From a virus, in the IMG/VR virus record IMGVR_UViG_3300030331_005568, positions 15,909-35,967 of that record: a DNA stretch of 20,059 nucleotides. One strand, given 5' to 3'. Under the pieces are notes generated by a model. It was not told the origin of the DNA. It searched no databases and was given only the letters and a program-made list of their open reading frames with translations. This document shows positions 2,721 to 17,316 of the stretch, one piece after another. Numbering within the stretch: the first letter of the stretch is position 1; each line of letters begins with the position of its first letter. The position numbers and the translations under genes were made by a program.

Positions 2721-4511
2721 ATGGCATATACTACTGAAGAAAACGAAAGTTATCAAGAGCCTGAACTCACAACTGATGAGTATCAAAGTGGATTAACTTC
2801 TTTAAATCTTGAAATACTATTTGATTTTATAGCGCAAAGATTAATAGAGAGTCCATTTGTTAACAAAACAATTGTAGAAAACAATCAAACATTTATTCGT
2901 AATGGTAAACTTGAACAAGGTGCCGGTGAAGGTGTTTTAGCACTTTTTCAAAAAGATTTAAAAGCTAATGAAGCTGACTTGAATCAAACAACCACATTAG
3001 ACACTGGTGAAACCATAAGTCAATTACAAAATATAATTAATCAAGTTGTTAATGTTAATAGTTTAAATGTAGCTGTTTCACAAGGGCAAGATGAATCTAT
3101 AAGTATAAGTCTTGTAGGTGGAGGGCTTCCAGATGGTGCAATAAATATTACAAATTTAATTATTGGTGATGGTAATCCTTTAAATGTAAGTCAATTTATT
3201 CCTTTAAGTCAAAAACAATCAAATGTAGATATTGACAAAGCAGAAGAATTTCTTGACACGAATATATTTGAATTACTACCATCAGGAGATACAAGACAAT
3301 CAAGAATCATTAGATTTTTTCAAGAGTTAAATGCTTTACTTCCACCAAACCCACCTGAGTTTGATTTAGATAATGATAATAGAGTTGACAGAGGAGCTGA
3401 TAATAATTGGACTGGTTCACTTCAATATCAACAAAACAATAGTATTTCATATGCTCAAGATAACACGGATGGTAATATTGATGAAGAAGATGCATTTATT
3501 CACAGATTAAAGTCAACAGCTAATGATACAAATTCAACAAGAACCATTGAGGATATTTATAACACTATTCTTCCTTATTTAACAGATATGTTGGAAGATG
3601 AAATTTTACCACAAGATGATAGACCTATATATCAAAATCAATCATCAGGATATTTAAAATTTAGAAATTTAAATCAAGGTATTATTATAAGAAATACAAA
3701 TCAAGAATTTGTTCAAGGATTAGACCCAAACAATCTAACGTATTTAGATGATGGCTTTACCATTACAATGTGGGTTAGGTTTTTAGATAAAGTATCTACT
3801 GGAACTTTATTTAATTTTGGAAACCCAACAAGAGGGCAAGATGACCCTAATTGGAACAGAACTTCAGAGGAAGGATTTGGTTTTAAATTAGAAACATTTA
3901 TTATAAATAAAGATGATAGAACTGGTTGGGGTGGTACTGAACCGGGTGATAATAATTATACTTTTGGTTCATTTAGTGATTCCCTTATTAATAATAATAG
4001 GCCTGATGGATATATATCAAAAGATTCTAATAAACCTATTTTCGGAAATACAGATTCTGCTCGTTTTGTAAGATTAGTTGTAAATGCAAAAGATACTAAT
4101 GGGGGTGGTAATTGGTTAAGAAGTTCAGAAGCTGGAAATAGTGCTTTTACTAAATATACTTGGAACTTACCTGAATTACCAGGTAATTTTAATCCTGATA
4201 ATCAACAATGGGATGAATTATTAGCACTTGGAGCTACACACATTCCTGAGGACTTTAATGAATGGTATTTCATATGTGCTACTTATAACCCTAACATAAT
4301 TGAGCCTGATAAATATAATGTATTTGGTGATAATGAATCTGGATTAAACCCTATTTATGATGCATATCAATATAATTTTGATTTTTGGATGAATCGTATA
4401 AATCCAGACCAACCAGATACACTTGTAGCTAATTCAGGTTATGGAAATCAATGTAAAGTAGAAATCATATCACGAACTGATTTATTAAAAGCTCGTGGTT
4501 TTAAGGTATAA
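2721..4511 (+). CDS. Virion protein with C-terminal concanavalin/LamG-like fold and EF-hand-like loops
   Basis: This is a 596-residue protein. Residues 1-200 contain an N-terminal helical part (SLNLEILFDFIAQRLIESP) and a Leu/Asn-rich stretch. Residues 205-260 hold two acidic loops resembling EF-hands: DLDNDNRVD at 215 and DNTDGNIDEED at 247. Residues 308-570 resemble a LamG/concanavalin-like sandwich: YLKFRN, then FTITMWVRF (347-354), TLFNFGN, and NEWYFICATYNP (513-524), the usual 'W-x-F/H-x-x-x-T/A-Y' strand. Long insertions between strands are unusual. It lies three nucleotides after the DNRLRE-like gene, with AAGGAA at 2708-2713 as ribosome binding site. The role is inferred to be a structural or receptor-contact subunit of the tail apparatus. 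Ligand is unknown. Confidence 0.65.
   Translation: MAYTTEENESYQEPELTTDEYQSGLTSLNLEILFDFIAQRLIESPFVNKTIVENNQTFIRNGKLEQGAGEGVLALFQKDLKANEADLNQTTTLDTGETISQLQNIINQVVNVNSLNVAVSQGQDESISISLVGGGLPDGAINITNLIIGDGNPLNVSQFIPLSQKQSNVDIDKAEEFLDTNIFELLPSGDTRQSRIIRFFQELNALLPPNPPEFDLDNDNRVDRGADNNWTGSLQYQQNNSISYAQDNTDGNIDEEDAFIHRLKSTANDTNSTRTIEDIYNTILPYLTDMLEDEILPQDDRPIYQNQSSGYLKFRNLNQGIIIRNTNQEFVQGLDPNNLTYLDDGFTITMWVRFLDKVSTGTLFNFGNPTRGQDDPNWNRTSEEGFGFKLETFIINKDDRTGWGGTEPGDNNYTFGSFSDSLINNNRPDGYISKDSNKPIFGNTDSARFVRLVVNAKDTNGGGNWLRSSEAGNSAFTKYTWNLPELPGNFNPDNQQWDELLALGATHIPEDFNEWYFICATYNPNIIEPDKYNVFGDNESGLNPIYDAYQYNFDFWMNRINPDQPDTLVANSGYGNQCKVEIISRTDLLKARGFKV
3357..3500 (+). other. Two EF-hand/dockerin-like loops within the 596-aa protein
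   Basis: Loop 1 reads PPEFDLDNDNRVDRGAD, with Asp at loop positions 1, 3, 5 and 9 but Ala at position 12. Loop 2 reads QDNTDGNIDEED, with Asn3, Asp5, Gly6, Ile8, Asp9 and Asp12 but Gln at position 1. The loops start 31 residues apart, a spacing reminiscent of paired dockerin repeats. The lead-in LLPPNPPEFD resembles the LPFP-x-Y-x-x-EFD lead-in of the modules in two later genes. Both loops are imperfect, so calcium binding is only a possibility. Confidence 0.4.
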
Positions 4512-4514
4512 ATT

Positions 4515-7500
4515 ATGTCATTTATCACAGAATCAATATCAAGTGGATTCGGTGTAGATGGTGTTGAAATAAAACAAACACTTTCATCATCTTATGACGC
4601 TTTTTCAGGATTGGATTTAAATACAAATTCTTTTCAAAACACATTGTCTTCTTTAATTAATTTTGATAACGATAAAAGAGAATCTCTTGGAATGTTTTTT
4701 TTTAATGAAGACAATATATCTCAAGATAGTTTTCCTGATGTGTTATCATTTCCATTCATAGGATTGAACAAACCAAATCTTGTTAACAATGGAAATTGTA
4801 AATTTACTAACAATTTTTTGTTATCAGATGTAGTTGTAGAACCACAAGGTAAATGGCATTATATGGGATTAAGGGGACAATACAATGTCCCATCCTCTCA
4901 AGATAGATTTAATTCAAATTTTATACAACATAATAATGGTCAAGGAACTCCTGATAGTCAAGGTTTTTTGGGTTATGGTGGATTTTTTCAATATATACCA
5001 ATACAAGGTGAAATTGATTCATATTATGATGATATGGATAATACCCGTAATTTTCGAAAACATTTTTTATTTTTAACTAATGGAAACGATAAAATAACAC
5101 AAGAAGATTTTAATTCTCACCTTACTGGTGAACAACCAATACCAGATACAACACCTGGTTCTATTGCTTCTGTAAGAAGTTTGTTAACAGTACTATATAA
5201 TGAGAATTTATCTCTTAAATATCCAACAATAGCATCTTGGATACAAACTGATGAAGCGTATTCATATGATAGATGTTTATGTTTTATAAATTATGAAATT
5301 TGGAATGCAAATCATATTTTAAATTTAATAACAAATGGTGATACAAGTACAAAATATATTTTTAATACATTACTTCCATATGGCTATGCAACAAATTCAA
5401 AATTAGACGACGCTTATTCAACATCCGATGTAGAATACTTTACAGAAAATCAATACAGAGTGCTAAATCAAGTACAAAAAATTTATGATAAGTTTAATGA
5501 TGATGTTATTAATCCCTACACTTCTTTTAAAGTAAGATTTAAAATGAAAACTACACATGTTCTTCCACCATCTAATTATTTTACAGATGCGAATGAAAAA
5601 CAATTATTTATAGAAAATCCATTGAATGAGGAATTAGAAATGGCACCTCAAGTAGAGGTTGGTATTTTAACCAATCAAGCACATGAAACACCATTTCCTG
5701 GAGTGAATAATATTTGGACTGAACAAAATTCATATTCTGATGTGATTGGGAGAAGAGATATCTATTTTGATGCAAAAGGATTTTTTAATTCTGATAGGTA
5801 TTCAGATGCTAACACATTTGCAAATAAAAAGTTTTCAAATTTTGGAGGTATGGGTAGATTCCAAAACTCTGTTATAAATGAGTGGGAAACATTTGAATTT
5901 AATTTTAATTTAACTGAGGAACATAATAATAGAGGAATGATATATGGAGTTCGGTATGGTGGAGTTTTTGATGATGAAAAAAATGGAGGACCTGTAGAGA
6001 TACAATTAAATACTATTTTCACCGATGCTCAGCCTGGTCAAAATTTAGGAGAGATTCATTTTAAAGTGAGAAATGCATCTATTGAGGGAACTTTACCAAA
6101 TGGTGAACCTGCAGATAGATTTTATATAACAGATCCTGGTGGACTTAGCAGAGTTGTTGCACATGAACCTTTTAGTACGGATGAGAATGGTGATGCAACT
6201 AATACTATTGCAAGTGGTTTGGGTGATGAGGATAATGTAGAACAAGCAACCAGTGACACTCTTGAAGCTTACATAATGTATGTTGGGCAAATAGCGCAGG
6301 CAGAAGGAATCAGTATGGAGGTGGATAATTATGATATTCCTGACTTAGTTGTTGCATATTGGGATGGTGAAAGGTGGAGTTATGATAATAATCGAGGATA
6401 TGATTCAAGCCGACAATTTAATCCAGATGAAACTTGTTTTATAATCGCAAGACTTTATTCTGATGAAGCAGGTGCTTCAGGTATTACTTCTATGGAACAA
6501 TACATTAGTAATGAAAATGCATATCCAACTGATGGTGTTGGTAATTTATATTTATTTTTACAATCTGGAAATAATTTTAATGGTAGGGTATTGATTGATG
6601 ACATTGAATGTTATGAGTCTTATGAATTTTATCCTGATGTGGATGTTAGAAAAAAAATATCCAATGGTGTTTATGGTTCAGGTGATTTAACAAACTATTA
6701 TGATAAAGAATTGCAAAACAACGAATATAAGGATTCAACTGCTCCGTTAGAAGCACAATTTTATTTTTATCCTCAATACCCAACCAATGAAATACTTGAT
6801 GTGGAAAGAACACCAATATACAGTGATTTCAGAAGTGGTTTGTTTTACATTTATGATGTGGATTGGGGTGATGGTACTCCAAATGAATTTTCAACTCCTG
6901 AACAAATTGATGAACAGAAAGCTATCTATCACACATATGAAACTAATGGTGTGTTTGAAGTTACAGGAACGATGTTAAGAGTAAAAGTTGATGAAAACAA
7001 TAATATTTTAGGTGTCGCACACAATAAAAAATTTAAATTAAGAATAAACATCAATGAAGGGTTAGATGAGGAATTTCAATACTTTGGTAGTGATGGATAC
7101 TCATTTATTCCATATAAAAACACCACACCTATAATTGGTGGTATTTCTAAACAAAGTAGTTATTATAAAAAAATAAAAAGACAATTAGGTTTTATTGGTA
7201 ATGAAAAAATTAATATAACTTTTAAAAACAATAGTGATAAGTTAAAAACCGAATTAGCATTATTAAAAATGGATTCTGAAGAACAAGACAAATTTGAAAT
7301 ATTACCAAGTTATTTAGAAAATAGATTTTTATCTCCAAATGGTGAACTTATTAACGATGGTATATCAGTAAATAAACAAGAATTAGGAAAATCAATTGGT
7401 GATTGTGATTTAGCAAACATAAAATTTTATAACACTGGTTCTTTATCTATACATCAACTTTTGGGATTTGAAGATGAACAAAGTAATATACCTGATAATC

Positions 7501-7967
7501 CGAGATATTGGAAAAATATTATTTCAGAAAATGATTCTATATTAGATAGACAAGGTATTGATTTACAATCAAATCCATCAATAGACGTTCATTCTGAGCA
7601 AGATTGGTTGGGTGATTATTATTATCCTGTATTACCAAAGTATGGTGCTAATGGTAGATTTGTAAATATTGAAATGGATGAGGATAACAATGTTATAAGT
7701 GGTTATCCTTCAATAGATGGCGTTTTAAAAATACCATTTCCATTAGAAGGTCCTATAACAGATGAAAATGAATCAAATGAAAACTTGATAATACATATAA
7801 TAAATGATAAAGTAGAAACTGATGTGTTACAAGACAAAAGTGGTAATGAAAATAAAGGTTTTGCAATTAAAGATTTTAGTCCAAAGTTTGAAAATGAAAC
7901 ACTAAGAGTTAGAAAATCAAAAATAACAAGTGTAATAAAAACATCTACAAATAATGGAGCATTTTAA
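4515..7967 (+). CDS. Large virion protein with PKD domain and C-terminal module shared with the next gene
   Basis: This is a 1150-residue protein. Residues 87-125 (NLVNNGNCKF...) and 680-700 (GRVLIDDIECYESYEF) resemble the opening and closing strands of carbohydrate-binding jelly-roll domains, with several hundred unassigned residues between them. Residues 708-775 (VDVRKKISNGVYG ... PLEAQFYFYPQYP) lead into a PKD-type Ig-like domain at about 771-845: WGDG at 784-787, YHTYETNGVFEVTGT at 805-819. Residues 871-1150 form a C-terminal region with landmarks TPIIGG, GKSIGDCDL, QLLG, DKSGNENKG and final NNGAF, mirrored in the next protein. PKD domains mediate protein or glycan contacts outside cells. 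Here a structural role in the tail or fibre complex is inferred. The ATG follows the previous stop by three nucleotides; AAGG at 4503-4506 is a modest ribosome binding site. There is no catalytic motif. Confidence 0.65.
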   Translation: MSFITESISSGFGVDGVEIKQTLSSSYDAFSGLDLNTNSFQNTLSSLINFDNDKRESLGMFFFNEDNISQDSFPDVLSFPFIGLNKPNLVNNGNCKFTNNFLLSDVVVEPQGKWHYMGLRGQYNVPSSQDRFNSNFIQHNNGQGTPDSQGFLGYGGFFQYIPIQGEIDSYYDDMDNTRNFRKHFLFLTNGNDKITQEDFNSHLTGEQPIPDTTPGSIASVRSLLTVLYNENLSLKYPTIASWIQTDEAYSYDRCLCFINYEIWNANHILNLITNGDTSTKYIFNTLLPYGYATNSKLDDAYSTSDVEYFTENQYRVLNQVQKIYDKFNDDVINPYTSFKVRFKMKTTHVLPPSNYFTDANEKQLFIENPLNEELEMAPQVEVGILTNQAHETPFPGVNNIWTEQNSYSDVIGRRDIYFDAKGFFNSDRYSDANTFANKKFSNFGGMGRFQNSVINEWETFEFNFNLTEEHNNRGMIYGVRYGGVFDDEKNGGPVEIQLNTIFTDAQPGQNLGEIHFKVRNASIEGTLPNGEPADRFYITDPGGLSRVVAHEPFSTDENGDATNTIASGLGDEDNVEQATSDTLEAYIMYVGQIAQAEGISMEVDNYDIPDLVVAYWDGERWSYDNNRGYDSSRQFNPDETCFIIARLYSDEAGASGITSMEQYISNENAYPTDGVGNLYLFLQSGNNFNGRVLIDDIECYESYEFYPDVDVRKKISNGVYGSGDLTNYYDKELQNNEYKDSTAPLEAQFYFYPQYPTNEILDVERTPIYSDFRSGLFYIYDVDWGDGTPNEFSTPEQIDEQKAIYHTYETNGVFEVTGTMLRVKVDENNNILGVAHNKKFKLRININEGLDEEFQYFGSDGYSFIPYKNTTPIIGGISKQSSYYKKIKRQLGFIGNEKINITFKNNSDKLKTELALLKMDSEEQDKFEILPSYLENRFLSPNGELINDGISVNKQELGKSIGDCDLANIKFYNTGSLSIHQLLGFEDEQSNIPDNPRYWKNIISENDSILDRQGIDLQSNPSIDVHSEQDWLGDYYYPVLPKYGANGRFVNIEMDEDNNVISGYPSIDGVLKIPFPLEGPITDENESNENLIIHIINDKVETDVLQDKSGNENKGFAIKDFSPKFENETLRVRKSKITSVIKTSTNNGAF
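6825..7049 (+). other. PKD (Ig-like) domain segment
   Basis: The translation contains YDVDWGDGTPNEF followed about 17 residues later by HTYETNGVFEVTGTM. The pair 'D-W-G-D-G' and 'H-x-Y-x-x-x-G-x-F/Y-x-V' is the hallmark of PKD domains. It is a single copy, about 75 residues long, flanked by phage-specific sequence. Confidence 0.8.
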
Positions 7968-7969
7968 AA

Positions 7970-10900
7970 ATGAATGCTCAAAAAATAATAATACCTAATA
8001 AACCTAAATTTGGAGATTTAGGACAATACAATTTTCCAAAAGATTTAGGACCTGAGTTAAATCCTGGAGGTTCTATCACGACAGAAAATTGGCAATTAGC
8101 TAGTGTAGATGACCCACCCCAACTTGTTCTCCAAGATGGACTTGTCATATGGTCACCAGCTGTTCAAGATAATCCAGATGCTTATGCACAACTACGACTT
8201 AATCAAAATTTAGAATTAGGTGCTGTGTATCAAATAAGTTTAAATGTTGTATCCAATGATGGAACTTTATTTGATGAAACAAAAAATCCTAATAGAACTG
8301 TAAGTGGTAGAATCAATATAAATCAAAGTGGTGCTGGTGACCCAGCGCTTAATTATTATCCACAAGTTGTACCGCCTGGCGGAGTAGGGTTATTTACAAT
8401 AGATTTCATACCTTTAAATCAATCTGAACTTAGAATATATAATCCTCAATATAATAATAATATAGTTGTTGATTTTATCTCTATCAGAAAATATGAAACC
8501 GCACCTACAAATACTTTCATAACAACGATAAACAAACCTCGTTTTAGATCTTCACATATGAATTCTGGTGAAGGAGGAGCTCTTGAAGAAGCGATGGAAG
8601 GACGCCCAATTGGAGCCTATAATCCTGAAATAAATCAACTTATGGTAGAATACGCAGAACTTTTTGGAAAATCTAGCATTGGCACACAACTAATATCCAT
8701 TGAAACAAGAACAAAAAGTGCAGGTACAGATATTGTTCGTTGGGACACTTCTGATGATGAATGGTTGTACATTCCATCATCAAATAATAATGAAGAATAT
8801 ATAGAAAAAATGAAAATCGTGTTTAGTGATGATTTGTCAAATTATAATGAAATGGAGGAATTTTTAAGTAATGCTTATGCTTATGAAAATTCTAATAGTT
8901 TACCAGAAAATTGGGATAAATTTCAAAACAAAGATTTGTTTACTAAATCTGTTGGTGATACAACTAATGAAAAAATAATTGAAGCAAATCTTAAATTTCA
9001 AGGTGATACTTTTATTAAAATAGATAACTTAGAGATTAAAAACACTGGTGTTGGTGGAACAACTAAGAATAATCGTGTAAGGGTTTTTATATTTTCTCAA
9101 GAAGCATATGGTTCAGACCCAACAACTGATTCATACAATTCTATAGATGATAAATTAAATAATTCAATTGAAATATATGATGAAACATTTGGAAATAAAT
9201 CAGAGGGTAAAGATTTAGGTAATATGAGTGACATTGAAGGTATTCCAATTATATCTAATTTTGGTGTAGAATCTGATGCGCCACTTGTAGAATTTTTTGA
9301 GGGTGATAAAGAATTTGATTATGAAGAAGCATTTCAACTTTCATCTTCACCAGATCCAGATTTACAAACAAGTATTTTTAATCAAAATGCTTCAAATCCT
9401 ATATACATTATAGTTTGGATGAGGGGTGATAAAAAAGTTGGTTGGCCAGTAAACACAGATAAAAGAAAAAGAAAGTATTCAATATTTAGAATTAATAACG
9501 ATGAATTATTTGACAAAGTTGGTAATTCTTATCAAGGTAAAAGTACAGTATTTGATTTCACTTCAACAACAAAAACTAAAACCGGAGGTGGTGGAGGTGG
9601 GGGAGCTGAAAAAGCTGCTTGGTATGTATCATCACTTAAAGTTTCAATAAACACGGCAGCTGGAGTACAAAATCAATTTTCTGAAGCAGCTAATTATCAA
9701 GATGTAATCCCATTAGTTCAATCCAAAACTCCAATAAATGAAAATACACTTGAGACTTTTGATTGGTTGAGAATATTAAATCCAGCAAATCAACTTGATA
9801 ATTTACAAGCAGCTAATAATCAAGGTTCAAATATAGCTGCTGATAGACATCTTGATTTTTTTCCATTAACGACATTTGGTTACTCAGTAAACAACGATGA
9901 TGGTGATATTAATTTTGGAAATAATTTTGTCGATTTACAATCATATTATAAAGATTTTAATTCAATTATGAAAGCTTCTTCTCCATTAAATGTTACTTTT
10001 AAATTCGATATTGTTGATGTTGAAGGAAATGAATTACCACAATATGGTACAAGTGGGGAAACAGAATATTATTATTTTGTAATTGATTGGAATGATAAAG
10101 ATAATAAGTTTAAAACTGTTAATGATTATTTTGAAAGCAGGCCAATTGATAGATTTAGATATTTAGAAAAGCAAAGTCAGAATTTATATTTTATAACTAA
10201 AGTTGGTACTAATAAAACATTATCTAATGTTTATACCACTCCTGGAATTAAAAATGTAAAAATAATAATGTTTAGTGTATTTAAAGGAAATGGAGCTATA
10301 GCTTCACCTTCATTTGAAGTTGGTAGATGGAAACTTATTACATCAAGATTTTATTTAGATATACCACCAAATCAATATCCTGATTTTTCTGATGTTGGTG
10401 GTAGTAATTATACCACTTTACCTTGGCCATACACAACTGCAATAATAGGGGGTGTGGATAATAACTCAAAATATAAAATAAGTGTAAATAATACTTTATC
10501 TGGTGGTAAAATAGGAGAGTTGGATATAATTGATGAAAAACTTTTAGTTAATGATTTAGATAATGATGAAATGGGAAAATCAATACTTTCCTTTGATTTA
10601 GAACAATGTAGATATTTTGATAAACCATATGATATGAATCAACTTTTGAAAATAACTAATATTCAACCATTTAATTCTTCAGAATATTATATTGAAAATT
10701 TAGATAAATTTCCATTTTATTTTGAAGAGTTTGACGCAGTTCAAGATGGTATAATTGATTCATTAGATGTTGTTTATTGGATAAATGTTGATAGGCCTGA
10801 TATAGCAGAATATATAGGGGATTTATTGGGTGATGGTTCTTGGTTAAATTTACCACGATATTCTAATTTTAATAATTATAATGATAACACATATTGGAAT

Positions 10901-11176
10901 GGTTTAACACCTGAAACAACTTTTTCAGAGGAAAGTTCAGTCGGACAGATATTTATAAGTGATAATCAGGACAAAGACTTGAAACAAAGTTGTAAATTAG
11001 AATTAAATACTGGTAACTTGACTGGTAAATCTATTTCAGATACAAGTGGAAACTCAAACAAAGGATTATTAATAGGTGATTATAAAGTTAAAAAAGCCAG
11101 AAAAGGTGAACCAATGAGAAGAGATTCATTTATAAAAGTTCCTAAAAAAACAGGCAATAAAAAAGGAGCATTGTAA
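7970..11176 (+). CDS. Large virion protein: galactose-binding-like N-terminus, Gly hinge, dockerin-like module
   Basis: This is a 1068-residue protein. Residues 25-175 (LGPELNPGG ... NWQLAS ... YQISLNVVS ... VVDFISIRKYE) match the pattern of galactose-binding-like/CBM4_9 jelly rolls, which end in 'v-x-(I/F)-D-x-(I/V)-S-(I/V)-R/K'. Residues 176-535 are unrecognised. Seven consecutive glycines (539-545) form a likely hinge. Residues 675-790 look like a degenerate PKD-like block (YFVIDWNDKDN ... VYTTPGIKNVKIIMFSV), at the same relative place as the PKD domain of the preceding protein. Residues 823-1068 share landmarks with that protein's C-terminus (TAIIGG, GKSI, QLL, DTSGNSNKG, KKGAL). A dockerin-like block (FPFYFEEFDAVQDGIIDSLD, from 914) is inserted within this shared part. 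GGAG at 7956-7959, inside the preceding gene, precedes the ATG by ten bases. The stop TAA shares its last A with the ATG of the next gene. Role inferred: structural, possibly glycan-binding. Confidence 0.65.
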   Translation: MNAQKIIIPNKPKFGDLGQYNFPKDLGPELNPGGSITTENWQLASVDDPPQLVLQDGLVIWSPAVQDNPDAYAQLRLNQNLELGAVYQISLNVVSNDGTLFDETKNPNRTVSGRININQSGAGDPALNYYPQVVPPGGVGLFTIDFIPLNQSELRIYNPQYNNNIVVDFISIRKYETAPTNTFITTINKPRFRSSHMNSGEGGALEEAMEGRPIGAYNPEINQLMVEYAELFGKSSIGTQLISIETRTKSAGTDIVRWDTSDDEWLYIPSSNNNEEYIEKMKIVFSDDLSNYNEMEEFLSNAYAYENSNSLPENWDKFQNKDLFTKSVGDTTNEKIIEANLKFQGDTFIKIDNLEIKNTGVGGTTKNNRVRVFIFSQEAYGSDPTTDSYNSIDDKLNNSIEIYDETFGNKSEGKDLGNMSDIEGIPIISNFGVESDAPLVEFFEGDKEFDYEEAFQLSSSPDPDLQTSIFNQNASNPIYIIVWMRGDKKVGWPVNTDKRKRKYSIFRINNDELFDKVGNSYQGKSTVFDFTSTTKTKTGGGGGGGAEKAAWYVSSLKVSINTAAGVQNQFSEAANYQDVIPLVQSKTPINENTLETFDWLRILNPANQLDNLQAANNQGSNIAADRHLDFFPLTTFGYSVNNDDGDINFGNNFVDLQSYYKDFNSIMKASSPLNVTFKFDIVDVEGNELPQYGTSGETEYYYFVIDWNDKDNKFKTVNDYFESRPIDRFRYLEKQSQNLYFITKVGTNKTLSNVYTTPGIKNVKIIMFSVFKGNGAIASPSFEVGRWKLITSRFYLDIPPNQYPDFSDVGGSNYTTLPWPYTTAIIGGVDNNSKYKISVNNTLSGGKIGELDIIDEKLLVNDLDNDEMGKSILSFDLEQCRYFDKPYDMNQLLKITNIQPFNSSEYYIENLDKFPFYFEEFDAVQDGIIDSLDVVYWINVDRPDIAEYIGDLLGDGSWLNLPRYSNFNNYNDNTYWNGLTPETTFSEESSVGQIFISDNQDKDLKQSCKLELNTGNLTGKSISDTSGNSNKGLLIGDYKVKKARKGEPMRRDSFIKVPKKTGNKKGAL
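8042..8497 (+). other. Galactose-binding/CBM4_9-like domain segment
   Basis: It runs from LGPELNPGGSITTENWQLAS to VVDFISIRKYE, roughly 150 residues. The start 'G-x-E-L-x-x-x-G', the central YQISLNVVSNDG and the closing 'D-F-I-S-I-R-K' fit the jelly-roll fold seen in carbohydrate-binding modules. Binding residues cannot be assigned by eye. Confidence 0.5.
10712..10819 (+). other. Dockerin/EF-hand-like module, copy 1
   Basis: The translation reads FPFYFEEFDAVQDGIIDSLD and continues with a helix-like segment ending RPDIAEYI. The loop D-A-V-Q-D-G-I-I-D-S-L-D has Asp at positions 1, 5, 9 and 12 and Gly at 6, close to EF-hand/dockerin loops, but has Val at position 3. The same lead-in and trailing helix recur twice in the next gene. 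Confidence 0.6.
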
Positions 11177-11178
11177 TG
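11163..11178 (+). promoter_or_regulatory. Ribosome binding site inside the preceding gene, with TAATG stop/start overlap
   Basis: AAGGAG (11163-11168) lies in the codons for the terminal KKGAL of the 1068-aa protein. It is seven bases from the ATG at 11176, whose A is the last base of the upstream TAA. This arrangement favours translational coupling of the two large proteins. Confidence 0.75.
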
Positions 11179-14100
11179 CCTGATTTTGAATTTGAATTTA
11201 ATCAAAATGATAAAGACTTAATTGTTAGTCAACAAGATGCTGTATTTGGTGAATCTAATTCGGATTATATTCGTTTAACTATTTATCCATCTGAAGCGAT
11301 TGATAACATTGTAACACTTCAAGATAATAGTCAGGCTATATTTTATTCTTCTTTAAGTCCCACACCTTTTAACATCAATGTATCACCATTTGGAGTGGGT
11401 TTAGATGAACTTAAAATAAAAACAATTGGTGGCTCTTTTGCTGATATAAATGATTTTAAAATTTATAAAACAGATTCAAATGAAATTTATATAAAACCAA
11501 ATGAAATATTTAATAAATTTGAATTACCTGAAGGTGATTATAAAATACAAATAGATTTTTTAAATCAAGTAACACCAATTAAAATAGAAGACTTACCTTT
11601 TCCTGAATACTTACAAGAATTTGATATAGAACAATCAGGTAATAGTCAAAACACTATTGACGTACAAGATGCCGTACGGTGGACTGAAGTAAATAGATTA
11701 GATATAGCTGATTATATTGTAGGTAATGTGTTAGGTGGTGGTGTGGTTATACCCACTGCTATGTCAAAAGCACAATATTTAGAAACTTTACCATTTCCAC
11801 AATACTTTGAAGAATTTGATATTAACGCTGATGGTGATATAACTTCGATTGATGTAACGGATTGGGTAGCTGCAGGAAGAATTGACATTAGTGAACATCT
11901 CGAATCCATTATAGAAAATGGCACTGTAGATGAAATTCCAAAAGCTTCTGATACAGATGAAGAACTTGCAAGTCCTCCTGAAGCATATTTTCCTGATTTA
12001 GAAATTTTAGAATCTTATTCAGATGAAGAAATTGAAATAAGACCCATTGAAAATTTTTATGCAACTGAAGATTTATCAGCAGCAGGTCAACATTATCAAT
12101 TTATTATAAAACAAATTTCTACTTCAAGAAAAGAAATTAGATTAAAATTAATTAATACTAAAATTTTTAACGACTCATCAATAATAAGTCAATTAACAAC
12201 CGAATTTAATCAAGGATTGGATAAGTATCAATTCAAACATGTATTGAATACTGGAACTGGTGACCATATTCCAATAATGAATTATCAGTTTGATAAAATA
12301 ACTGATGGTCGTGATAATCAATCCATAATATTAAAATTATATGAACCATTACCAACTAGTGTTGGAAATTTATCAATGGTTACAATTGAGAAAGAAGTTT
12401 TAACAACACAAGTTCAAAACATATTTTATTTTTCTGATGTGCCTGATGTATTTTTCGGAGATGGTTTACAACCAGACAATCAAGAAAGATGGATTAATAA
12501 TGATGGGGAAATTCCTACTTTTCAAAGTTTAGATGAATTAGCCATATCAGCTTCCATAGGTGATATTGAAGTTGACTCTTTAGTTTCAGCGAGTGATTAT
12601 GGTTATCCTAATTTAAATACAGATTTTAATGAATATTCAAATCATACATTTTTTGGTTCTGCTAAAAAGAAATTAGAAAACTTTAAAACAAAAGTAGAAA
12701 CTATACAAAGTTATTATTCTGAAATATCAAGTTCACTAAATGTTTCAAGTTCAATTCAAGGTGATTCAACTTTTGTGATACAAAAAAGAGATGATTTATT
12801 TAAAAAAATAAATGAAGAGTTTAAAAACTTTACACCATATGAAAGATTTTTATATTTTGATGCTCAAACTGATTCAACAGCTTCAGCTCCAAGTTTAAAA
12901 AATTATGCGGACACATTACCAGTTACACTACAAGGCCATGTTGGTTCTTCTGTAGAGGGAATTGAATTAAACCAACATAATGGATTTAATGTTGTGTACA
13001 AACATTCATCTGAAAAAATATCAGGCACTCATAATCAATTCATAGATTTATTTACAGACAAATATAAAGTAGAAAACAAACCATTTTTTAATTACAGTAG
13101 TTCAATTTATTTATCATTTTTATTACAGGGTGATAGTGGTAGTTCATTAACTTGGGGAAATAGACAAAAACAACATAGTCCACCTTATCCTATAGATACT
13201 TTACACCAAAATACTATATCGAATCCTAACATAACAGGTAGTGAATATCAAAGATATATTTTTGAAGCTTCTCAATCTTACTTCATACCAAATACTAGAG
13301 ATACAGGTTCAGTTCATGATATGGCTGATTTGGATATAACTGATTTTGATGCAAACTCAACTAAAATTACTATTTTAAGTGGTAGTAATAAAACAGGTTC
13401 TTATCAAATTAAAGATTCAACTAATAAATATCCAACTACAGTAGTAAGTCATAGTGGTGTTCCATTTTCTGGATCAGTAATGCCAGCTGGAGAATTGTTT
13501 AGAATATTTACAAAAAACAATTTATCATCAAGTCTACTTGCTTATTATGACTATCAAGGTGTAACGATTGATGATAATAACTTTGAAGTATTTGATAGAA
13601 GTGGAAACAACAATACTTTAGAATTTGCAGGTAAGGGTGCTTCACCAGATGGATTTACATCAGCTTCAATAACAACTGGTGTTCAAGGTGGTGATGCTTT
13701 TGCATTTACAACAACTGGTAGTGAAGGTAATGCTCAAAGTGGAAGTATATTCTTAACAACAAACCAATCAGATGCTCCAATTGAAACCGCTCCAATATCA
13801 ATGTCTGCAGTTGCAGGTGATGCTGTTACTGGTTTCACTATGGCGACTTATTATAAATCAACTTCTACTAAAAATAATACAACCATACTGGCTATGGATA
13901 TTAAATCAGGTTCAACTGATGTTAATGGTTGGAGTCTTCAAAGATTAGGAAACACTATAGCAGGTGAGGTGACACGAGAAGGAGTGGATATATTAGATGA
14001 TGATACTTCAGAAGATGGATTGAAAACAGGTACTCTTACTCCAAGAGATGGTAACTTCCATCACATAGCTATGACTTATGATAATTTGACTGGTACGGGT

Positions 14101-17100
14101 TCAGTATTTTTTGATGGTGTGTTACAAAAACAAGGAAATGCAAGAGGACTTATAACTGGTAGTAATCAAATTTATAGATTAGTTGTTGGGAGTGGTGCTG
14201 GTGGGTCACAAGGTTTTGATGATGATACATTTGATGAAACAAGATTTTATACAAGAGCGTTAACACCTTCTGAAATAAATCAATTGTTTTTACATCCTGA
14301 TGGAAAAACAGAAACAAAAATCACAGATGTAAAGTTAACATTAAAAAATCCAACTGATGTTTTACCATTTGATACTATTTTTAAAACAACGTCTACTGAG
14401 TTTACAAATTGGTACAATAATGCATTAACGACAGCTGAAACATTTGACACTAACAATATACATTCATTTGAAAATAATTTACCTCTTTATATACAAGAAA
14501 GTTCCGAATATAAAGATATGAAAGATTTTTTAAATCTACAAGGTGAACAATATGATTTAATTAGAAATCATATTGATTCGTTAGGTACATTACATAAAAG
14601 AGGATATAAAAAAACCAATTCACCACCAGACAATACTTTACCAATGTTATTAAATAATATGGGGTATCAGGCTGTTAATCCATTTAGTGGTAGTTTAACA
14701 GATTCATTAGGTGCTTATTTAAGTGGTATAACTTCAATTGATGATATAAAAAATGCCACTTGGAGAAAAACACTTAATAATTTAATTTACATTTATAAAT
14801 CAAAAGGTACAAAAAATTCAGTAAGAGGATTACTAAATGTTTATGGTTATCCACCTGATGTGTTAAAATTTGAAGAGTTTGGTTCAACACCACAAGCAGA
14901 TGATGCGATTGTGTTTTCGGATGAAGTACCTGCCATTAATCCACCATCCAACAATTTTGATTTAAATTTAAATACGCAAACTGGAAGTTTTGGATTTACC
15001 AATCAAACTAAAAAACTTTATAGGTATATTTTTAATGCAAAATCTAATAGGATTTTAAATTTAGATTGGTGGATGGATGATGCGAATATCAATACATTTG
15101 AATTTGTATATAAACATGCACAAACAACAAATACACAAACAATAGTAAAATCAAGTGGTAGTGGTGCACAGTCTCTTTGGGATTTAAGATTAATACCTAG
15201 TTCAGATGGTTTAAGTTCATCCTTTGAATTTAGATTAAATAATTCACAAAGAGGTGGAACTGCTATTGCTAGTAGAGGTTTTTCAATGTCATTAGCATAC
15301 AATGAAATGACTGATGGTCAGTTATGGAATGTAATGATTCAAAGAATGACTGGAAGCACAGATGGTCCAGGAACAATTGAATATCGTCTACACTCCGCTT
15401 TACAACAAGAAAGTGCTATTGAAACGTATAGTTTTGTATCTATGTCAATTAGTGGTGGTTTAACGGGTGACTCGACAATTGAAGGTAAGGGATTTTTTGC
15501 TAATCAAAATTGGCAGTCAAGTGGTTCTAGAAATCATTCAGCATCAGCTAATCTATTTATTGGTGAAACATTTAGTGGTTCACTAGCAGAAATAAAAGGT
15601 TGGTCAACAGCTTTAAGTGTTTCTAAATTTAGACAAAGAACATTAAATAAGTTCTCAACTGCTGGAAATTCAATTTCATCACATTGTAAAGAATTAATTT
15701 ATCATTTTAAATTAAATGAAAACTATAATAGTTCATCAGTTTCAAGTTCTACGCAAAACTTATCAATTATTGATGCTTCACCAAATTTAATTTATTCAGA
15801 TTATTCATTTACAGCTTCTGGACAACTATTTGTAACTTCTTCAATTTATGGTTTTGATTTTATTAATGTGACAACATTAGCTTTACAAGATAATTTTAGT
15901 CAGAATAGTGACAATAATATTTTTATAAATCCAACTCAAACATTGGTTGGTAATTTAAATCCAAATCAATCAGCAGTTGACTCACTACAATCTTCGGTTG
16001 GAAAAAAAGAACAAATTAAAACATCACCTAAATTAGAACTATATCGTTCACCACAAACATTTATTGATAATTTTATTTTAGACAAAGTAAGTGGATTTAA
16101 TTTAGAAAAACTATATGGTAATCCAAAAGAATACTATTCTCAATCATATGATGAGTTCAATACTTTTAGAAAAGAGTTTTTTGATTGTTATGAATTTTCT
16201 ACAAATATAAATACTTTTATCAGAGCTCAAGAAAGTATGTTTAATGATTCAATCGCTGAGGGCGTTAAATCAATAGTTCCAGCTCGTTCTACATTTGGTG
16301 ATGAAAATTCAAACTTTGGTGTTGAAATAAAACCAACATTATTAGAAAAACAAAAATATCAAAATGAAAAACAATCAGTAGAAGCTAATCCAAATACAGC
16401 TGAAGGTATTTATAATGTAAATGTTAAATTATCAGATAAATTTGCTAATACAGAATTACTAACAATTTATGATTCTGTAAAAGAGGGTGAAGTATTAAAG
16501 CCAGTTTCAATAAGTAGTTCGCTAGAAGATACAATTATGATAACTTCTTCTATTAGTTTAGGTAATACATATCAGGCAAGCACTGGATATATTCACCCAC
16601 CATTTTTACAGCCAGGCGGATATTCCGCATCAATAGAAATTCCTAATCAAATTTCAGGCGGTTTGAGTTATTTACCAGCTGTAACTGGTTCTATTGGTAC
16701 TGATGATACAAAAACAGGTTCAATAGATTATGCTTCAATAGCGAATGAATCATATGAAAGTGTTCATAAAAATTGGGGAGTTGGTACAGATAATATATAT
16801 TTTATAAATTATTTTAACACTGGTTCAGATGGTACATTTAATACTTATCATATAGATACACGATTTGTATTTCATATGATTGGAGATACGGAATATTATT
16901 CAGCTTCATTTGGTAATAGTTCAGATTTTATGAATCCAAATAGATTTTATAATAGGTTATTAATTAATAATGATTTTCATTCTGATGTAAAATATGAATC
17001 ATTTATAACTGATAGCACTGGAGAGCAAGTTGGAAGAATGATAGGTAAAACAAGATATTTTACAACGGGTTCAACTGCACATGGAGAAATTATTTTACCA

Positions 17101-17316
17101 ACAAATCATGTTACTAAATTTAGTCAACCATTTAAAGAGCAAATGTTTAATGGAGCACAAAACACAAATCCAGGATTTTTAAACGTACAATATGAAGATT
17201 ATTCAAGCGCATCATTTTATTCAGTTACTGTAACTGGTGGTGAAAATCAAATTATTATTAAAGGTGATAGCTCTGCTGACTTGGATGATAATAGTAGAAT
17301 AATGTATGATGATTAA
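11176..17316 (+). CDS. Giant multidomain tail/fibre protein: dockerin-like pair, LamG, tail-protein-like core, second concanavalin-like domain
   Basis: This 2046-residue protein is the largest in the window. In order: two dockerin-like modules at 140-242; unassigned residues 270-490; a helical, probably coiled segment at 495-556 ending FTPYERFLYFDAQT; a LamG-like domain at about 787-1040 (LAYYDYQ ... FDRSGNNNTL ... FTMATYYKS ... FHHIAMTYDN ... GSVFFDGVL ... DETRFYTRALTPSEINQLF); a core at about 1105-1236 (MKDFLNLQGEQYDLIRNHID ... WRKTLNNLIYIYKSKGTKNS ... RGLLNVYGYPPDVL) like phage tail proteins that carry the 'K-x-K-G-T-x-x-S-(I/V)-x-x-L-(L/I)-x-x-(Y/F)-G' motif; a second concanavalin-like domain at about 1283-1490; and a C-terminal region (1669-2046) with VPARSTFGDE and GVEIKPTLLEKQKYQ. 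AAGGAG at 11163-11168, seven bases before ATG, and the TAATG overlap with the preceding gene fix the start. It is likely a baseplate-linked or fibre-scaffold protein; the tail link rests on the central motif. Confidence 0.7.
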   Translation: MPDFEFEFNQNDKDLIVSQQDAVFGESNSDYIRLTIYPSEAIDNIVTLQDNSQAIFYSSLSPTPFNINVSPFGVGLDELKIKTIGGSFADINDFKIYKTDSNEIYIKPNEIFNKFELPEGDYKIQIDFLNQVTPIKIEDLPFPEYLQEFDIEQSGNSQNTIDVQDAVRWTEVNRLDIADYIVGNVLGGGVVIPTAMSKAQYLETLPFPQYFEEFDINADGDITSIDVTDWVAAGRIDISEHLESIIENGTVDEIPKASDTDEELASPPEAYFPDLEILESYSDEEIEIRPIENFYATEDLSAAGQHYQFIIKQISTSRKEIRLKLINTKIFNDSSIISQLTTEFNQGLDKYQFKHVLNTGTGDHIPIMNYQFDKITDGRDNQSIILKLYEPLPTSVGNLSMVTIEKEVLTTQVQNIFYFSDVPDVFFGDGLQPDNQERWINNDGEIPTFQSLDELAISASIGDIEVDSLVSASDYGYPNLNTDFNEYSNHTFFGSAKKKLENFKTKVETIQSYYSEISSSLNVSSSIQGDSTFVIQKRDDLFKKINEEFKNFTPYERFLYFDAQTDSTASAPSLKNYADTLPVTLQGHVGSSVEGIELNQHNGFNVVYKHSSEKISGTHNQFIDLFTDKYKVENKPFFNYSSSIYLSFLLQGDSGSSLTWGNRQKQHSPPYPIDTLHQNTISNPNITGSEYQRYIFEASQSYFIPNTRDTGSVHDMADLDITDFDANSTKITILSGSNKTGSYQIKDSTNKYPTTVVSHSGVPFSGSVMPAGELFRIFTKNNLSSSLLAYYDYQGVTIDDNNFEVFDRSGNNNTLEFAGKGASPDGFTSASITTGVQGGDAFAFTTTGSEGNAQSGSIFLTTNQSDAPIETAPISMSAVAGDAVTGFTMATYYKSTSTKNNTTILAMDIKSGSTDVNGWSLQRLGNTIAGEVTREGVDILDDDTSEDGLKTGTLTPRDGNFHHIAMTYDNLTGTGSVFFDGVLQKQGNARGLITGSNQIYRLVVGSGAGGSQGFDDDTFDETRFYTRALTPSEINQLFLHPDGKTETKITDVKLTLKNPTDVLPFDTIFKTTSTEFTNWYNNALTTAETFDTNNIHSFENNLPLYIQESSEYKDMKDFLNLQGEQYDLIRNHIDSLGTLHKRGYKKTNSPPDNTLPMLLNNMGYQAVNPFSGSLTDSLGAYLSGITSIDDIKNATWRKTLNNLIYIYKSKGTKNSVRGLLNVYGYPPDVLKFEEFGSTPQADDAIVFSDEVPAINPPSNNFDLNLNTQTGSFGFTNQTKKLYRYIFNAKSNRILNLDWWMDDANINTFEFVYKHAQTTNTQTIVKSSGSGAQSLWDLRLIPSSDGLSSSFEFRLNNSQRGGTAIASRGFSMSLAYNEMTDGQLWNVMIQRMTGSTDGPGTIEYRLHSALQQESAIETYSFVSMSISGGLTGDSTIEGKGFFANQNWQSSGSRNHSASANLFIGETFSGSLAEIKGWSTALSVSKFRQRTLNKFSTAGNSISSHCKELIYHFKLNENYNSSSVSSSTQNLSIIDASPNLIYSDYSFTASGQLFVTSSIYGFDFINVTTLALQDNFSQNSDNNIFINPTQTLVGNLNPNQSAVDSLQSSVGKKEQIKTSPKLELYRSPQTFIDNFILDKVSGFNLEKLYGNPKEYYSQSYDEFNTFRKEFFDCYEFSTNINTFIRAQESMFNDSIAEGVKSIVPARSTFGDENSNFGVEIKPTLLEKQKYQNEKQSVEANPNTAEGIYNVNVKLSDKFANTELLTIYDSVKEGEVLKPVSISSSLEDTIMITSSISLGNTYQASTGYIHPPFLQPGGYSASIEIPNQISGGLSYLPAVTGSIGTDDTKTGSIDYASIANESYESVHKNWGVGTDNIYFINYFNTGSDGTFNTYHIDTRFVFHMIGDTEYYSASFGNSSDFMNPNRFYNRLLINNDFHSDVKYESFITDSTGEQVGRMIGKTRYFTTGSTAHGEIILPTNHVTKFSQPFKEQMFNGAQNTNPGFLNVQYEDYSSASFYSVTVTGGENQIIIKGDSSADLDDNSRIMYDD
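11593..11901 (+). other. Two dockerin/EF-hand-like modules, copies 2 and 3
   Basis: Copy 2 reads LPFPEYLQEFDIEQSG, followed by IDVQDAVRW and RLDIADYI. Its loop has one extra residue and Ser in place of the usual Asp at position 5, so it is degenerate. Copy 3 reads LPFPQYFEEFDINADG, followed by DITSIDVTDW and GRIDISEHL. Its loop D-I-N-A-D-G-D-I-T-S-I-D is a canonical EF-hand/dockerin loop (1, 3, 5, 6, 8, 9, 12 all satisfied). A spacer rich in Gly/Val separates the copies (residues 183-200). Confidence 0.65.
13534..14295 (+). other. LamG/concanavalin-like domain segment
   Basis: Residues 787-1040 of the 2046-aa protein show LAYYDYQ, FDRSGNNNTLEF, FTMATYYKS, WSLQRLG, NFHHIAMTYDN, GSVFFDGVLQ and DETRFYTRALTPSEINQLF. 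This is the usual strand order of Laminin_G_3-type domains, including the 'D-E-(V/T)-R-x-Y-x-R-A-L-(T/S)-x-x-E-I' ending. Ligand is unknown. Confidence 0.85.
14488..14883 (+). other. Tail-protein-like core segment
   Basis: Residues 1105-1236 contain YIQESSEYKDMKDFLNLQGE, LPMLLNNMGY and WRKTLNNLIYIYKSKGTKNS, then VRGLLNVYGYPPDVL. A helical segment followed by 'Y-K-S-K-G-T-x-x-S-(I/V)-x-x-L-(I/L)' and a Tyr-Gly-Tyr/Ile-Pro turn is common in tail proteins of the P2 gpI kind and in large marine-phage tail proteins. The assignment is by motif memory only. Confidence 0.5.

Follow-up and report, generated by a model that had tools for sequence, protein, structure and literature searches.

The domains closest to the module described here are the EF-hands (PF00036, PF13405 and PF13202), which usually function in pairs, and the type I dockerins (PF00404) of secreted enzymes, which carry a duplicated loop-helix repeat in a domain of about 60-70 residues. 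Among the titles and abstracts listed in searches of open-access literature, none described such modules in the baseplates of phages. In lactococcal 936 phages, optional carbohydrate-binding modules inserted in virion proteins (evolved Dit, TpeX and neck passage) can act as host-surface binders and are sugar binders characterized by binding assays (PMC6669499). The module described here is likewise optional and carried by more than one structural protein among related phages, but it is an unrelated small domain, predicted to be helical.

The window, that is, the whole stretch of 20,059 nucleotides analysed, covers the final 20 kb of an IMG/VR viral record 36 kb long, and coordinates are counted from its start (Table 1). 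PhoH is encoded in the part of the record preceding the window. Baseplate wedge proteins of the gp25 type (PHROGs 261/43) and the gp6 type (PHROG 219) are also encoded upstream, and because these genes precede the window, its large genes could be assigned to the baseplate block of a T4-like myophage. Among isolates, the closest relatives of the gp6-type protein belong to Microcystis phage Mel-JY01 and Flavobacterium phage immuto (31-36% identity). In Mel-JY01, as in an uncultured 484-kb phage, the best match to residues 1068-1727 of the 2046-aa protein lies downstream of gp6 at a distance of a few kb, a position that would fit a wedge-type protein; from its KGT motif, we take the 2046-aa protein to resemble the P2 gpI/T4 gp7 group. 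The prokaryote genome search revealed no relatives of this protein, and neither the 1068-aa nor the 1150-aa protein had a match among the isolate phages searched. A 416-aa protein encoded at 1467-2717 of the window showed a weak CBM96 match (E 0.026). At the start of a contig (L002:1-759), a 5'-open ORF of 252 aa reads like a porin-like outer-membrane beta-barrel and had no Pfam match.

Table 1. Genes and EF-hand-like segments of the window; module E values are from the profile built without the window's copies.
Feature	Position	Strand	Description
Two-loop EF-hand-like segment, 596-aa protein	3300..3515	+	About residues 194-265; loops DLDNDNRVDRGA and QDNTDGNIDEED
1150-aa neighbour	4515..7967	+	No module in the window; 1-3 modules in most orthologues
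1068-aa protein carrying a module	7970..11176	+	Large baseplate-block protein; 0-2 modules in orthologues
EF-hand-like module 1	10688..10831	+	1068-aa protein, residues 907-954; loop DAVQDGIIDSLD; insertion site A, from alignment with module-free orthologues; E 4e-14
2046-aa protein carrying modules	11176..17316	+	Baseplate-block protein; LamG domain at residues 884-1035; C-terminal half partly matches Mel-JY01
EF-hand-like module 2	11587..11727	+	2046-aa protein, residues 138-184; degenerate loop with 4-residue insertion; absent from most orthologues; E 2.7e-14
EF-hand-like module 3	11776..11916	+	2046-aa protein, residues 201-247; canonical loop DINADGDITSID; E 5e-20; pLDDT 92; Dockerin_1 E 0.003, sub-threshold

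The original prediction placed three copies of a dockerin/EF-hand-like pattern in two adjacent large ORFs, of 1068 and 2046 aa, overlapping by 1 nt. Both ORFs and all three copies could be confirmed. When a profile of 48 copies, all from other contigs, was applied to the whole 36-kb contig, exactly these three copies were recovered (Table 1), and the best E value after 50 shufflings of the contig ORFs was 0.08. The motif first described was correct in its essentials, the family consensus (47 copies) being YLxxLPFPxYFEEFDIxxxGxxxxxDxxxWxxxGRPDIAxxI. The description of one loop as canonical and the others as degenerate also held: the copy at residues 201-247 has a full EF-hand-type loop with the strict pattern (ligands at positions 1, 3, 5 and 12, hydrophobic residue at 8), and the other two window copies depart from it, the 1068-aa copy having no usual ligand at position 3.

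A search with the 2046-aa protein yielded 20 loci, to which a motif search added further ones, and an iterated profile collected 52 distinct copies from 33 IMG/VR contigs, the window's copies included. All contigs of the family are fragments. Every one of the 52 copies sits in an orthologue of the 1150-, 1068- or 2046-aa protein, and the three protein types are adjacent wherever contigs show them together. Beyond what had been predicted, relatives carry the same domain elsewhere in the 1068- and 2046-type proteins and in the third neighbour, the 1150-aa orthologues. No relative of the module passed in a search of 84,980 prokaryote genomes, nor was it found in 50,697 phage records, in which no match was better than E 0.1; an NCBIfam search gave nothing relevant. 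From the prokaryote and phage-record searches, the module seems, within the limits of the searches run, to be restricted to a single uncultured clade of T4-like phages.

AlphaFold prediction from 47 aligned copies produced a confident model (pLDDT 92) with helices at 5-11, 18-21, 31-39 and 43-55. The EF-type loop (22-33) lies between the second and third of these, with a helix on either side, that at 18-21 being short. The model has a helix-loop-helix with an EF-hand/dockerin-like loop, together with a third helix beyond it. In the prediction of residues 1-377 of the 2046-aa protein, the flanking strands were of fair-to-good confidence and module 3 formed a separate confident globule on low-confidence tethers. 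Foldseek searches of PDB and BFVD with the 67-residue module model revealed no relative, small domains being hard for this tool, and gave nothing usable for the N-terminal 377 residues; the EF-hand assignment therefore rests on the sequence profile and secondary structure instead of fold matching.

Profile comparison against dockerins and EF-hands gave consistent matches of sub-threshold strength, with E values down to 2e-4 for the Pfam Dockerin_1 and EF-hand models. The best E value for Dockerin type I across copies was 2.5e-4, and the best window copy scored 18.2-18.3 bits, below the Pfam cut-off of 22.9. PDB EF-hand proteins were matched at E 1.8e-4 by profile A1 but only at 0.12 by the wider profile A3. 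Two of the 47 module copies matched phrog_3617 (E 6.7e-4 at best), which, with just two members matching, probably reflects a generic EF loop. EF-hands provided the best profile matches and share with the module the 12-residue loop D-x-[DNS]-x-[DNSG]-G-x-[ILV]-x-x-x-D, flanked on both sides by a predicted helix; in contrast to them, the module is single and not paired, has a short E helix after LPFP and a conserved third helix (RPDI), and its loop is often degenerate or enlarged. With type I dockerins it shares the D at loop position 12 and weak profile matches, but it occurs within loops of virion proteins, the stretch beyond RPDI is a helix without an acidic loop, and the duplicated loop-helix repeat is absent. 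No cohesin (PF00963) match was obtained in nine related records, incomplete ones, including the window's own, in which neighbouring genes had been proposed as the place to look. The EF-hand-like part of the predicted identity therefore stands on the profile matches, the loop consensus and the confident helix-loop-helix, whereas its strict dockerin part is unsupported because each module has a single loop and no duplicated pair and no cohesin was detectable. At most, the module would work like half a dockerin, and it was not classed as one.

Analysis of the copies revealed a conserved frame around a variable loop. In the numbering of the 67-residue model, P15, R42 and D44 are invariant and L12, F21, W37 and I45 nearly so; of 47 copies, 45 have D or N at loop position 22, 40 have D at position 33 and 43 have I, L or V at position 29. 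Plausible residues at loop positions 1, 3, 5 and 12 are retained in about 20 of the 52 copies and the strict EF pattern in about 15, so that over half of the copies are without the full ligand set. The remaining copies have degenerate or enlarged loops within the conserved LPFPxYxEEF...W...RPDI frame. Insertions lie either within the loop or in the stretch from W to R, and the spacing from EEF to RxD(I/V) ranges from 19 to 50 residues. Across the three protein families (approximately 119,000 residues), 14 strict EF loops were located within modules and none outside; shuffling over the full lengths predicts approximately 2.5. A role of the module as a hypervariable-loop scaffold was rejected: in five close orthologue pairs the module was no more variable than the remainder of its protein, with one exception at the 6th percentile.

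The modules form clean insertions in loops, at roughly ten sites over the three proteins. The site in the 2046-aa family lies between the strands YKIQIDFLNQ and FIIKQISTSRKEVRLK; in the window, the modules are bounded by YKIQIDFLNQ (122-130) and FIIKQIS (309-315). The insert is present in five of the 24 orthologues in the tree of this family, including the window protein with its two tandem copies, and most of the orthologues have a short turn at the site, of a few residues in some. In the 1068-aa family, the main site A follows DLEQxRYFNKxYDMxxLL, a second lies in the loop after QNLYKI and a third near the N-terminus. The 1150-aa family has about six or more places, the exact columns of which hinge on a gappy alignment. 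On the tree of the 2046-aa proteins, presence at two sites requires at least four and at least five changes by gain or loss, three of the latter being forced by well-supported branches. When copies were compared across contigs, 24 of the 52 matched best to one in a different protein, and a 98-aa cassette in an 1150-type protein of one phage is 62% identical to that in a 1068-type protein of another.

Of the 23 genomes in which the required genes are present, 10 have two recognisable modules, 7 have one, 4 have three and 2 have none; the no-module count of L006 is less certain because a gap of approximately 366 bases without an ORF call between its 1150- and 1068-type genes (L006:7735-8099), where relatives have a few bases, may be a frameshift. 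In none of the 23 did all three proteins carry a module at once. Concerted evolution within a genome was considered and discarded, as modules of the same genome were no more alike than those of different genomes. Some 1150-type proteins (L009, L044 and L038) have N-terminal extensions with GCTDPxAxNYxxxAxxxDGSC repeats not far from the module. Two 1150-aa orthologues (L045:4976-11356 and L046:3438-9857) contain a Hint/intein-like segment near the N-terminus, at about residues 90-255, which starts with CFVAGTKV, ends with THNS and has Gly-rich flanks; that of L045 matched Pfam PT-HINT (8.5e-10) and Intein_splicing (3.7e-5).

The EF-hand-like segment of the 596-aa protein keeps its position in nearly all orthologues, with loops that decay in some, and its best member matched EF-hand_8 at E 1.3e-3. 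Its homology with the mobile module was not supported: hhalign gave a probability of 23 with the loop region alone aligned, and the leave-window-out E value was 2.3.

That the module is an EF-hand-like domain and that it is mobile, taken by themselves, we regard as highly probable. The reading favoured as a whole, at a probability of about 0.5, is that this domain is an accessory insert which would act outward from the baseplate and aid the hold on the host surface. The unit is predicted to be an autonomous helical domain of approximately 45 residues, with a helix, a short E-type helix, a 12-residue EF-hand-type loop, an F-type helix and a third helix from RPDI. Over evolution it shifts between loops and between the three adjacent baseplate-region proteins, and it can be lost. 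Copies with intact loops may bind calcium, which would pin the two loop-flanking helices together, and ligand-less copies may be held by the conserved hydrophobic frame. The domain would point outward as an add-on gripping the host surface, and would not be a required clip between subunits. Outward action seems most likely because many proteins and sites are tolerated without a fixed partner pattern, and an essential clip is disfavoured because of the movement between unrelated sites, the loss in some genomes and the same lack of a partner pattern. The attachment role is thus argued in part by analogy, being favoured because optional virion modules elsewhere, such as those of the 936 phages, can be host-surface binders.

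Ranked after the attachment aid, and rather unlikely, is a calcium-stabilised spacer, a compact filler that would hold long inserted linkers or neighbouring inserts and have no specific ligand of its own. Such a filler would agree with conservation chiefly at the likely core residues named above, other positions varying, with the low-confidence tethers on both sides of module 3 and with some copies that adjoin other large inserts; however, a strict LPFP/RPDI frame across very different sites exceeds the needs of a spacer, and many orthologues manage without an insert at the same sites. A frame conserved over non-homologous contexts would suit a domain with one common partner, as in dockerin-like docking, where each module would bind a cohesin-like receptor, carried by an enzyme or by a different virion subunit, as a new pair. 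The strict copies indeed have dockerin-type loops, with D and not E at position 12, and Dockerin_1 is among the best Pfam matches. We nevertheless consider docking doubtful in view of the single loop, the lack of a cohesin match in the nine records searched, the zero to three modules per genome without a fixed pattern and the lack of greater likeness within genomes. A mobile, dispensable accessory domain fits the data better than dockerin-cohesin docking. The original proposal that the modules dock virion subunits or confer calcium-dependent assembly was not demonstrated; as a required step it became less likely, given that no module is recognisable in two relatives possessing all three proteins, that seven carry just one, and that the sites vary freely. 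Placed last is a homotypic pairing, quite improbable to us, in which single EF-hands of neighbouring subunits would form an EF-hand dimer and clip the subunits with calcium. Paired action is usual for EF-hands, and in the window, as in one relative, tandem copies are spaced by 63-69 residues, but the genomes with a single copy or none speak against it and loops with large insertions could hardly pair. We also give little credence to a further possibility, that the mobile 45-residue domain is a standard baseplate plug for a single shared partner, either a subunit of the phage or a structure on the host surface, repositioned among the three proteins to rearrange the adhesion apparatus.

The locus clearly illustrates how a tiny domain has moved from loop to loop in baseplate-region proteins, some relatives having it and others lacking it at the same sites, and so how surface parts of myophage baseplates may be acquired and lost. 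The module family also allows the decay of calcium loops within a conserved frame to be tested. Should there be a common partner, the module would be the very small tag of a new adhesion or protein-protein pair, and if the module does act as a standard plug, this docking or adhesion pair would be unrelated to cohesin-dockerin.
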